Made by a program: the position numbers and the translations under genes. A stretch of DNA of 39,708 nucleotides from Elusimicrobia bacterium GWA2_51_34 (GTDB lineage Bacteria; Elusimicrobiota; Elusimicrobia; Elusimicrobiales; UBA9959). The notes below the pieces were generated by a model that saw nothing but the letters and a program-made list of their open reading frames with translations, had not been told where the DNA came from and did not search any database. Positions 7,623 through 35,750 of the stretch are shown here, in pieces. Each line of letters begins with the position of its first letter. Position 1 is the stretch's first letter. The stretch spans positions 1-39,708 of the forward strand of contig MGTS01000003.1 in NCBI GenBank assembly GCA_001799565.1. The letters run 5' to 3'.

Positions 7623-7671
7623 TCCAACTCCCGGTTTACATCTACCTTAAAATTTTGCCACAAAAAACTGG

Positions 7672-7759
7672 CGGAAGGAGTGGGATTCGAACCCACGGTA
7701 CGCGTTAAGCATACATCAGTTTTCAAGACTGACGCCTTAAACCACTCGGCCATCCTTCC
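7672..7759 (-). tRNA. tRNA-Ser (anticodon TGA)
   Basis: On the minus strand, acceptor GGAAGGA pairs with TCCTTCC, followed by D-arm GGCCGAGTGGTTTAAGGC. Anticodon stem TCAGT/ACTGA encloses CTTGAAA (anticodon TGA). A long variable arm and T-arm GTGGG-TTCGAAT-CCCAC follow. It is 88 nt, class II. Its first 23 nt overlap the 3' end of the GIY-YIG frame, whose stop codon TAA is supplied by the D-loop. Confidence 0.95.
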
Positions 7760-8078
7760 CTAAATCATTGCTTATTCTAGCGGCACCAAGTGCACAGTGC
7801 CCGAATTTTTTCCGCCGGAGGCGGACCCGCCGGATTGTTTGGCGGGCAAAAACCCATTTTCTCCCTGCCCCGGATTTTAGAAAGTTTTCCCGCCTGCGGG
7901 CTTCGGTGTAATTACGACAGTTTTCCTCATAAACTAGCTTCCAAGGCCTTCCCGCTTTTGTGAATCTTGTCTTTCCATGATTATGGGCCACCAAACGAGT
8001 ATTAGCATTCTCGGTTCTAGTAGAGCCGGTATAAAATTTATCTAGAGCTTCACTATATAGAACATATACGCTTGCCAT
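7737..8078 (-). CDS. Single-domain GIY-YIG nuclease-family protein
   Basis: The first 85 or so residues are a compact GIY-YIG domain (YhbQ/UvrC-like small family). VYVLYSEALDKFYTGST carries the GIY- and YIG-equivalent tyrosines at about 4-18. It is followed by RL..HN.G, the 'TKAGRPWKLVYEE' strand, then the EAR.RE..LKSG.GR.W signature helix with the catalytic glutamate. The natural family end is near residue 85. The remaining tail is translated from a 36-bp double palindrome (7811-7846), spacer, and the first 23 nt of tRNA-Ser(TGA), which encodes GKDGRVV and stop. Copies of the same palindrome flank the gene on both sides in the same orientation. Such proteins cut or join branched DNA in related families; the role here is unknown. 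Confidence 0.8.
   Translation of the reverse strand: MASVYVLYSEALDKFYTGSTRTENANTRLVAHNHGKTRFTKAGRPWKLVYEENCRNYTEARRRENFLKSGAGRKWVFARQTIRRVRLRRKKFGHCALGAARISNDLGKDGRVV
7811..7846. repeat. 36-bp double palindrome, copy 1
   Basis: On the minus strand it reads CCCGCC, 9 bases, GGCGGG, TCCGCC, 3 bases, GGCGGA: two adjacent 6-bp-stem hairpins. It is 36 bp like the copy at 8096-8131 and shares the loop AAACAA-CC. It lies within the 3' tail of the GIY-YIG frame. Confidence 0.8.
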
Positions 8079-8095
8079 AAAACTTTTCCGGTTTT

Positions 8096-8131
8096 TCCGC
8101 CTAAGGCGGACCCGCCGGGTTGTTTGGCGAA
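8096..8131. repeat. 36-bp double palindrome, copy 2, in tRNA anticodon loop
   Basis: Minus strand: TTCGCC, 9 bases, GGCGGG, TCCGCC, TTA, GGCGGA. It has the same length and layout as the copy at 7811. It falls between CTTG and AAA of the anticodon loop of the tRNA-Ser remnant. Confidence 0.8.
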
Positions 8132-8146
8132 CAAGACCGACGCCTT

Positions 8147-8191
8147 TCCGCCATTACGACTTTGGCGGACCCGCCAGGTAGTAGTGGCGGG
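8147..8191. repeat. 45-bp double palindrome, copy 3, in tRNA D-loop
   Basis: Minus strand: CCCGCC, 10 bases, GGCGGG, TCCGCC, 11 bases, GGCGGA. The stems are identical to the other copies while both loops differ. It falls between GGTTT and AAGGC in the D-loop of the tRNA-Ser remnant. Confidence 0.8.
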
Positions 8192-8219
8192 AAACCACTC
8201 GGCCACCTCTCCCTAAAAA

Positions 8220-33486: not shown

Positions 33487-34551
33487 ATGCTTTCCACAGT
33501 CCTATCTGTCAGGCAGACAATCAATCCATTTTTGAAGCTAGCCGCCATCCAGGTTTCCCAGACGCTGGAAATGAAGGAGCCTGATTACGAATCGCTCGTT
33601 TCCAGAACAGAAAGGAATATCTGGTTCATAAAATTGTCCCGTTTCAGGCACGGACTTCCGGTAATCCGGCGTATTCCCTGGCCGCACACGCGCCTGGCGT
33701 CGGTATATTTTCAGGAGACGGAACACGTTTCGTCAAACACCGGTCTTCTTGCCTCCTTTTTAGGCGAACATCATAAGATTTTAGGCTGGATTCGCGAGTT
33801 GGGCCGTGGGAATTTTGAGCGCTATTTTCTGAATCCGGCAGGGCAAGAGGATCCCGTCCGCATCGTTAAAGCCCTGGGGATTACTTCTCGACGCGTAAAA
33901 ACCATACAGGATTTTATGAAGTCCTTTTCTTTTTACGGGGAGGAGAGCGCCGCGCGCACGTCTCCGCCGGTTCAGGGAGGGTATCCGGTGGCGCGCGTTG
34001 AAATAGACCGAGGTAAACCCTGGCTTTCCTGGTTGATCCCCCATTACGCGAAGGGAAAATATCACATCAATTACGAGGCGTTGAAAATTTTCAGGCGTGA
34101 TGGGAAATTTACCAGGGAAGAATGGCGCGATATCAGCGGTCTTTTAATCCAGCTGGAGAAAATCAACCGGAAGCAAACCGCTATGGCAGCGGTTTTGGAA
34201 TTTATTCTGAGGTTCCATAAAGTCTGGTTCCTGCGCGGACCGTTGAAAGAATTAAAGCCCGTTACCCAGCGTCTGGCTGCCGGGCGGCTGGCACTTGCGC
34301 CCAGCACTCTTTCCCGTTTGTGCCGGAACCGCACTCTTATAACCCCCTGGGGGGAGGAGACGCGGCTGGAACAGTTTTTTCCTTCCAGAAAAACATGGCT
34401 TTTCAACCGCTTAAGGCGGCTGATAGTAAAGCGGCCTGATATAAGCTCCGCCCTGATCCAGAAAGAACTTGCAGACCGCTTTAAAGCAGATGTTTCGCGA
34501 AGACTGATCAACCTCTATCGGCGCCAGATCAATTTGGAGAAAAAAATATGA
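33487..34551 (+). CDS. Divergent RNA polymerase sigma-54 factor (RpoN-like)
   Basis: This 354-residue protein can be followed along sigma-54 from end to end, though it is shorter than the usual 430-500. Residues 8-29 (VRQTINPFLKLAAIQVSQTLEM) parallel region I (Q..MTP.L..AI..L..STLEL). Residues 76-145 parallel the core with its 'LLE.L......A..I...LD..GYL' helices. Residues 220-270 (LEKINRKQTAMAAVLEF, FLRGPLKELKPVT) match 'SIEQR..TL..V...I...FF..GP..LKPL'. Residues 268-298 (LALAPSTLSRL, LITPWGE, LEQFF) match the 'LGLHESTVSR...NKYV.TPRG...LK.FF' helix-turn-helix. The RpoN box ARRTVAKYR is replaced by SRRLINLYR at 337-345. The acidic region II seems absent. Its last 4 bp overlap the histidine kinase gene. 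There is no obvious ribosome site. Confidence 0.85.
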   Translation: MLSTVLSVRQTINPFLKLAAIQVSQTLEMKEPDYESLVSRTERNIWFIKLSRFRHGLPVIRRIPWPHTRLASVYFQETEHVSSNTGLLASFLGEHHKILGWIRELGRGNFERYFLNPAGQEDPVRIVKALGITSRRVKTIQDFMKSFSFYGEESAARTSPPVQGGYPVARVEIDRGKPWLSWLIPHYAKGKYHINYEALKIFRRDGKFTREEWRDISGLLIQLEKINRKQTAMAAVLEFILRFHKVWFLRGPLKELKPVTQRLAAGRLALAPSTLSRLCRNRTLITPWGEETRLEQFFPSRKTWLFNRLRRLIVKRPDISSALIQKELADRFKADVSRRLINLYRRQINLEKKI

Positions 34552-35750
34552 ATACCGAATCGCCAATTTTGCAGGGAGACGAATTGTGCCAAGCTTTGCT
34601 GAATGCCTTGTTTTTAGATTCCCACGCCCGGTTCCTGGCGGCGGACGCGGATTTTAAGATACGAGCCGTAAGTCCGGGCGCGGCGAAGCTGCTTGGTTAT
34701 GTTTGGCAGAAGGAAACATTTCCGACGCTGCAGGATCTGTTTAACGATGGGACCGGCTGGAAAGAGCTTTTGAGTTTGATAAAAAAGAGAGATTCAGTTT
34801 CCGGGCATCATTGCCGTCTGCGTGGAAACAGGAAGGAACTGGTTGACGTTATCCTGGATATAAAGGCTCTGCGCACTACCTGCGCCCGCGCCCCCGCGGC
34901 CGGGCCCGCCGGATTGTTTTCCGCCAGGGGCGGATCCGCCGCTTGCTTGGCGGAGGCGGGTGAAACTCCGGCTCCCCAGCGCGTATTGGGCGGCGTTCAG
35001 GGATATCTGATACATATAGGCGTTAACGCGCCAGCGCCGGAAATGGATTCTGGGCAAGTACAGAAGGTATTAATGCGCATGAACAGGCTGGCCTCTATCG
35101 GCCAGATCACGGCCGCTTTCGTCCACGGGATAAAAACCCCGCTTCATGTCATCAGTTCCATGTCTGAGCTTATGCTGGAAAATAAACTGGAGCCGCAGAT
35201 CCGCGAGGGCATCCAGATGATAGCGCGCAATGCCCAGAAAACCTATCAGACGGTGCAAACTGTTCTGGCATATTCCAAAGATGTGAATACCCATCTGGAA
35301 AAAGTCGCTCTTCACCCGGTGGTCCAGAGCATCTGCGACCTGCTGTCCGGGAACTTTAACGCCCGGCAGGTGGAACTGATATGCACCCTGAACCCCATGT
35401 CTGACGTAATGGCTGACGCTAACCAGATACGCGAGGCTGTCTGCAATATACTTATCAATTCCCTGGACGCTACCGTTTCAGGCGGCCAGGTGACGATTAT
35501 TGCCGGCATGGACGACCGTAAGAAATCCGCTTATATAGAAGTCAAGGATACCGGCGCCGGGATACCCGAAGATGTTCTTCCACGTATTTGCGAGCCTTTT
35601 TTCAGCACCAAGGAGAAGGGGACGGGACTGGGGCTTTATCTGGCCGACCAAATTATGAAAGGTCACGGCGGAAACTTTGCCATAGAAAGCAGGAAAGGCG
35701 TGGGCACTACGGTTACGCTTTCATTCCCCTGTTCTATTGACGGACAGTAA
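34548..35750 (+). CDS. PAS-domain sensor histidine kinase
   Basis: The 400-residue soluble kinase has an N-terminal PAS domain (about 22-160), a HisKA dimerisation helix with phospho-accepting H193 in FVHGIKTPLHVI, and an HATPase domain. ATPase motifs: N-box NILINSLDA (300-308), G1 DTGAGIP (334-340), F-box FFSTK (351-355), G2 GTGLGLYL (358-365). The residue after the histidine is Gly, not the usual Glu, which may alter phosphatase activity. The PAS domain is broken at about residues 112-147 by a low-complexity stretch encoded by palindromic repeat DNA (34905-34960). There is no membrane segment, so it senses a cytoplasmic cue. It is translationally coupled to the sigma-54 gene and followed by an NtrC-type activator, its likely partner. 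Confidence 0.92.
   Translation: MNTESPILQGDELCQALLNALFLDSHARFLAADADFKIRAVSPGAAKLLGYVWQKETFPTLQDLFNDGTGWKELLSLIKKRDSVSGHHCRLRGNRKELVDVILDIKALRTTCARAPAAGPAGLFSARGGSAACLAEAGETPAPQRVLGGVQGYLIHIGVNAPAPEMDSGQVQKVLMRMNRLASIGQITAAFVHGIKTPLHVISSMSELMLENKLEPQIREGIQMIARNAQKTYQTVQTVLAYSKDVNTHLEKVALHPVVQSICDLLSGNFNARQVELICTLNPMSDVMADANQIREAVCNILINSLDATVSGGQVTIIAGMDDRKKSAYIEVKDTGAGIPEDVLPRICEPFFSTKEKGTGLGLYLADQIMKGHGGNFAIESRKGVGTTVTLSFPCSIDGQ
34905..34960. repeat. Palindromic element inside the histidine kinase gene
   Basis: The plus strand begins CCCGCCGGATTGTTT, identical over 15 bp to the palindrome at 7826-7840. It continues with TCCGCC-agg-GGCGGA, TCCGCC...GGCGGA and ends GGCGGG: nested and tandem 6-bp stems. 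The reading frame stays open through it. Confidence 0.8.

Follow-up and report, generated by a model that had tools for sequence, protein, structure and literature searches.

Why should a bacterial tRNA gene be interrupted twice by copies of one short palindromic element, with a nuclease gene directly behind it? The question is raised by a locus on contig MGTS01000003.1 of Elusimicrobia bacterium GWA2_51_34 (assembly GCA_001799565.1), of which the first 39,708 nucleotides (hereafter the window) were analysed. An initial annotation, made from the sequence alone, had described a serine tRNA with double palindromes in its D-loop and anticodon loop and had proposed that their insertion was guided by the tRNA or by structure. 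The locus is probably a homing cassette in which a GIY-YIG nuclease targets tRNA genes and a rescue tRNA is carried along. Such a cassette would comprise, in this order, a palindrome-disabled 5' fragment of the resident tRNA, a free-standing GIY-YIG gene, and a complete tRNA of the same isoacceptor.

Structure of the locus

The interrupted copy of tRNA-Ser(UGA) lies on the minus strand (8088..8213) and retains the 5' acceptor strand, the D arm and the anticodon arm only. Read from 8213 to 8088, its blocks are GGGAGAGGTGGCCGAGTGGTTT (8213-8192) 5' of insert 1, AAGGCGTCGGTCTTG (8146-8132) between the inserts, and AAAACCGG (8095-8088) after insert 2; together they form the first 45 nt of the tRNA, which ends after the anticodon arm with its 3' half absent. 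Both inserts are double-palindrome elements on the minus strand and represent two variants of one family. Insert 1, in the D-loop (8147..8191, 45 bp), has the layout CCCGCC..GGCGGG TCCGCC..GGCGGA with a long second loop, and insert 2, in the anticodon loop between TCTTG and AAAAC (8096..8131, 36 bp), has a short second loop. No base was lost and no target was duplicated at either insertion, and the insert boundaries drawn in the initial annotation are exact to the base. Neither ARAGORN nor Rfam called the fragment (8213-8088) as a tRNA.

Block 3 is followed by AAAAGTTTT and then by the ATG of the GIY-YIG open reading frame (ORF) at 8078, so the missing 3' half and the immediately adjoining nuclease gene had been read correctly. 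The ORF (7737..8078, minus strand) encodes 113 amino acids with the catalytic domain at residues 2-69 (PF01541, 40.3 bits). Its last ~35 codons run through a third double-palindrome element at its 3' end (7811..7846, minus strand), and its stop codon lies inside an intact tRNA-Ser(UGA) with CCA (7669..7759, minus strand), which stands beyond the gene on the same strand as the fragment and ~0.3 kb on. The third element is translated in frame within the ORF, as are Rickettsia palindromic elements.

The tRNAs detected in the genome include no tRNA-Ser(UGA) other than the intact one at 7759-7669, and the interrupted copy is therefore not a working gene but a redundant fragment. The earlier description of a twice-interrupted tRNA-Ser holds in that the tRNA is real, but it passed over the fact that this is a truncated duplicate upstream of an intact copy. 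The GIY-YIG ORF is the only gene between the tRNA 5' part and the intact tRNA. The integrase and the attachment repeats at the tRNA 3' end that mark a tRNA-integrated island are absent here, the repeated portion being the 5' part of the tRNA. Likewise, no group I ribozyme core was found by Rfam intron matches, either at the gathering score in the window or at a permissive threshold in the region.

Empty sites and the origin of the two copies

In two genomes of the same genus (G001 and G002), the syntenic interval, which lies upstream of glmM, contains a single tRNA-Ser(UGA), which is intact, and no GIY-YIG gene. The sister genomes bear out the annotated site as that of a tRNA-Ser gene, and the cassette is present or absent between close relatives, as is the case for free-standing GIY-YIG homing endonucleases. 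The 5' half rebuilt without the inserts matches the tRNA-Ser(UGA) of G001 at 43/45 positions, far above chance, which confirms its annotated identity, and matches its own intact neighbour at 38/44. The intact tRNA in the window is closer to that of G005, a member of another genus (84/91), than to that of the same-genus G001 (72/88). Because the fragment is G001-like and the intact copy G005-like, these comparisons, made on short sequences at one locus, are suggestive of a resident gene that was turned into the fragment and of a working copy that was probably imported.

Recurrence within the genome, the phylum and beyond

When all tRNAs were searched against the retrieved element neighbourhoods of this genome, five further disrupted tRNA fragments were found, each directly upstream of an intact tRNA of the same isoacceptor. 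Three of them have no GIY-YIG gene; of these, Ser(GCU) carries the element in its D-loop, Ser(GGA) has elements in both the D-loop and the T-loop, and Gly(UCC) has one in the T-loop that differs in sequence. In the Ala(CGC) and Ala(GGC) fragments the anticodon arm is replaced by TCCGCCTTAGGCGGA; the former is followed by a GIY-YIG gene with its stop codon within the intact tRNA, and the latter by this gene without its middle part, which is deleted.

A profile of tRNA-linked GIY-YIG proteins was run over 341 genomes of the phylum and the top loci were read. Among the 47 best matches (E <= 1e-20), 34 were placed by script at most 300 nt from a tRNA, and L195, overlooked by the ORF finder and added by eye, makes 35; in every case the gene and the tRNA share a strand. 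A counterpart is found in G015, a member of another genus, where the D- and anticodon-loop inserts of a Ser(UGA) fragment occupy the same positions as in the window and a GIY-YIG gene and an intact tRNA follow (L099); the palindrome insertions are nested here. A third Ser(UGA) locus with both inserts is L201 (family f29); of the other Ser(UGA) loci, L204 is interrupted in the anticodon loop and L195 in the T loop. The anticodon-loop insert occupies the position of insert 2 in L099, L201 and L204, and D-loop elements like insert 1 are also present at L034, L082, L099, L186 and L201. At L082 (G007), the Ser(GCU) arrangement occurs twice in tandem. Beyond Ser(UGA), the layout is found in the phylum on Ser(GCU), Asn, Gln, Ala, Gly, Pro, Cys, Asp, Arg, Lys and Tyr.

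The same layout is present in other phyla, which brings it to copies of 14 tRNA types overall. Examples include tRNA-Ala in Armatimonadota, with the anticodon arm replaced by TCCCGCTTAAGGCGGGA, tRNA-Val in Acidobacteriales (Acidobacteria; TCCCGGCTCGCCGGGA), tRNA-fMet in Patescibacteria, with D-loop hairpins, and tRNA-Leu in Bacteroidota, with palindromes in the D and T loops. Two tandem arrays of Bacteroidota (L236 and L245) contain three GIY-YIG genes each, 350 or 369 bp apart, and in L236 each gene is accompanied by a palindrome-bearing tRNA.

Other tRNA-linked features were seen in these neighbourhoods. A second group of GIY-YIG genes lies downstream of tRNA-His/Asp/Arg (L085, L100, L150, L151, L152, L213), with a spacer often rich in TTCTACTTCGC/GCGAAGCAGAGC hairpins; L085 and L100 have tRNA 3'-end repeats as well. 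Elsewhere (L034 at 1100-1430 on the minus strand, L018 at 1796-2060, L015, L019, L036, L038, L042), the last 15-21 nt of an intact tRNA, from the T loop to the 3' end, are repeated downstream in one or two copies ~150-250 bp off, sometimes around a structured element (GCGAAGCAACTGCTTGCTTCGC...). These repeats resemble the tyrT 3'-end repeats of E. coli. A structured stretch of ~200 bp flanked by GGGTGCGACAA-like repeats is found upstream of tRNA-Ser genes (L171, L172, L034) and is perhaps another tRNA-linked element.

Placement of the palindromes and their families

Palindrome positions, taken from an automated chain of tRNA blocks, fall into two classes. In Ala, Gly, Val and Tyr, a single palindrome of 14-19 nt stands exactly in place of the anticodon arm (positions 27-43), and in Lys, Pro and Gln the replacement is close to exact. 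Double palindromes are found in the loops (D, anticodon or T), where few bases or none are lost. The short replacements are the clear cases, since the stem-length control for palindromes is weak for long inserts, whose flanks are rich in hairpins. No palindrome inside the acceptor or D stem was seen among the loci read. The position tracks the isoacceptor: Ala always has the anticodon arm replaced, Armatimonadota included, with an additional D- or T-loop insert at two Ala loci, and the D-loop site recurs in Asn (twice), Gln(CUG) (twice) and Ser(GCU) (three times).

In the genomes checked, the palindromes of the disrupted tRNAs are the hosts' own dispersed repeats. For example, TCCCGAT..ATCGGGA is dispersed in 38 copies in G344 and in 25 in G338 and G345, and CCCCGATAGCTATCGGGG is present 3-6 times in Bacteroidota genomes. 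As for the family in the window, the genome search proposed in the initial annotation returned 40 exact copies of GGCGGGTCCGCC-N(3-11)-GGCGGA in 2.63 Mb and none of the reversed control, which confirms that the two precise inserts belong to a single dispersed family. For five of the 40 copies the distance to an intact tRNA is at most 150 bp, in addition to the two in the window fragment, against an estimated ~0.3 expected by chance; most copies are away from tRNAs. Palindromes related to the same family also occur at 34920-34954 of the window, inside a long predicted ORF (34548-35750).

The flanks of the 37 complete copies fit YTK|AARSC, with T at -2 in 30 and A at +2 in 36. The loops of tRNA-Ser happen to contain this preference, which the D-loop sequence TTGAAGGC fits. 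Genome-wide, the sites of the family are neither enriched in hairpin loops (5/37 vs 7.0 expected) nor more often unpaired as single-stranded DNA (0.487 vs 0.467, p = 0.54), and a general structure-guided insertion of the family was rejected as unsupported. The proposed guidance is upheld in one respect, as tRNA copies are a special target because the same disruption recurs on many tRNAs and in other phyla, but not as a structural rule outside tRNAs. Junction repeats of at least 5 bp occur at 14/37 sites vs 2.6 expected; as many sites lie inside 7-bp periodic intergenic repeats, target duplication is indistinguishable from context in this figure. Double palindromes within such repeats (ACCCTAA, GAAGGCT, TGTGACT) are frequent in the flanks of L005, L033, L047, L048, L060 and L065. 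An obvious mobilizer would be a Y1 transposase of the RAYT (REP-associated tyrosine transposase; REP, repetitive extragenic palindromic) type, and this candidate was rejected: none of the six such genes in the genome has a double palindrome within 1.5 kb, and no GTAG or CGTC tag stands in the flanks of the 37 copies.

The GIY-YIG nuclease

The GIY-YIG proteins of these loci are ~80 amino acids long and comprise the catalytic domain only. The residues Y, Y, G, R, H and E are invariant across the aligned relatives, in keeping with the catalytic domain of a free-standing GIY-YIG homing endonuclease, and the nearest solved structures are UPF0213, SLX1 and I-TevI. Between the window gene and its G015 homologue, the nonsynonymous divergence (dN) is 0.26 and the synonymous divergence (dS) 2.4 (dN/dS ~0.11); the nuclease is under purifying selection. 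The gene tree groups by tRNA type (25 changes vs 30.2 shuffled, with 1/300 shuffles as low) and by host family (23 vs 28.1, with 0/300 as low). A tblastn search for phage or plasmid carriers of the cassette gave only distant GIY-YIG relatives, all at <60% identity.

A proposed homing cassette with a rescue tRNA

The reading that we favour is that a homing-type GIY-YIG endonuclease most likely cuts the tRNA gene. The break would let the cassette be copied into the site, by which the resident tRNA would be reduced to a fragment, and the cell would be kept alive by the cassette's own (or a regenerated) tRNA, akin to a naturally occurring 'cleave and rescue' drive. Dispersed palindromes of the host would then be kept or gained by the redundant tRNA copy, either within a loop (D, anticodon or T) or as a substitute for the entire anticodon arm. 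These palindromes probably persist as they destroy the nuclease site, or as repair scars there, and probably also as they interrupt the direct repeat that would otherwise allow loss of the cassette.

Several observations weigh against this homing interpretation. The intact tRNA would carry the presumed target too, unless the flanks matter. The protein, at ~80 amino acids, has no obvious DNA-binding domain, and its solved relatives include the housekeeping-like UPF0213 and SLX1. Horizontal spread is supported in part, because the gene tree follows host family about as well as tRNA type. Twelve of the 47 best matches lack a tRNA in the surrounding 300 nt (in one of them, L143, a tRNA lies at 331 nt). 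No other RNA genes were found by Rfam beside the tRNA-less loci. Finally, a recognizable remnant is missing from the tRNA-linked genes at L188, L203, L213 and L215 and at the Pro(UGG) loci L011/L127/L128.

Alternative explanations

The most serious alternative, possible though doubtful, is that the palindromes are ordinary mobile repeats, like REPs or miniature inverted-repeat transposable elements, whose preferred target sequence occurs in tRNA loops by coincidence, and that they pile up in dead tRNA copies with the nuclease unrelated to them. The dispersal of the families in host genomes agrees with this, as do the consensus YTK|AARSC fitted by the tRNA-Ser D-loop, the nested insertions in L099, the lack of a structural preference genome-wide, and the majority of the 40 copies being away from tRNAs. 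However, nearly every fragment that extends beyond the first arm contains a palindrome, and the position follows the isoacceptor across genera and phyla (the anticodon arm in Ala, the D-loop in Gln(CUG) and Asn). Moreover, the exact exchange of positions 27-43 for unrelated palindromes is not an insertion, and palindrome families that are unrelated to one another behave alike in different phyla.

Two further explanations are unlikely. One is amplification driven by the nuclease: phage SegB, often encoded beside tRNAs in phages, amplifies tRNA genes by tandem duplication (PMC13096335), and breaks beside a tRNA could in the same way raise tRNA dosage, for example against tRNA-cleaving toxins, with the fragments as debris. 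The tandem arrays L143, L236 and L245 would fit, but usually only one intact tRNA is present, so that dosage is not raised, and the systematic disruption of fragments by palindromes is not predicted. The other, of similarly low probability, regards the palindrome-bearing fragment as a cis-acting RNA leader that controls nuclease expression from the tRNA promoter. Hairpins 5' of the phage T4 homing endonuclease genes I-TevI, segB and mobE repress them (PMC2988022), the ORF often starts ~10-30 nt from the fragment, and the leader folds better than its shuffles (z = -2.7). The same palindromes are nevertheless found in fragments downstream of the gene (L144, L164, L165, L187, L207) and in fragments that have no gene (L028, L034, L040).

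A functional interrupted tRNA from which the inserts are spliced or processed out is highly improbable, for although the flanking tRNA sequence is intact to the base at both inserts, the 3' half is missing, an intact tRNA-Ser(UGA) is adjacent, and no intron family was detected.

Relation to known systems

The arrangement was not described in the open-access literature searched. For the homing mechanism, by analogy, SegB is the closest precedent: in phages T4/T6 it is likewise encoded by a small free-standing GIY-YIG gene by tRNA genes with tandem tRNA segments (PMC2988022, PMC13096335). The cassette differs in being chromosomal, isoacceptor-specific and ~80 amino acids in its protein, and in lying head-to-tail on one tRNA with a palindrome-disrupted fragment; SegB, unlike the cassette, is listed as targeting a tRNA intergenic region. 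REP/REPIN sequences with RAYT and the Rickettsia palindromic elements are also short dispersed palindromes, often paired and also found in genes, whereas the present ones lack the GTAG/CGTC tag and a Y1 gene within 1.5 kb and recur in tRNA copies. In fungal and sponge mitochondria, double hairpins are inserted in RNA genes at tolerant positions (PMC2800124); those described here are similarly placed in RNA genes but are bacterial and tied to one kind of site, the redundant tRNA copy within a GIY-YIG cassette. A GIY-YIG gene within a tRNA gene is also a feature of the group I introns that encode GIY-YIG endonucleases and interrupt tRNA anticodon loops, while here there is no ribozyme and no splicing, and function is kept by a second tRNA.

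Implications

The recurrence of the three-part layout on many tRNAs in several phyla points to a type of selfish element, not described so far, whose targets are tRNA genes. In its full form, which we put forward tentatively, this would be a 'cleave-and-rescue' tRNA cassette spread over multiple phyla, in which a minimal GIY-YIG nuclease hits the gene of one isoacceptor and provides a substitute tRNA, and a host palindrome, swapped into the cleaved loop or for the whole anticodon arm, disables the displaced copy. Bacterial genomes commonly contain small GIY-YIG genes, most of them without an assigned function; if a large class of these genes are selfish elements that target tRNAs, their head-to-tail position on tRNAs would be explained. 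Phage SegB would then have a chromosomal counterpart in the cassette, which would also exemplify cleave-and-rescue in nature. If so, GIY-YIG nucleases would also drive the spread of palindromic repeats, and the old puzzle of how dispersed palindromes spread and become fixed in bacteria would be tied to defined sites, the loops of redundant tRNAs and the anticodon arm.
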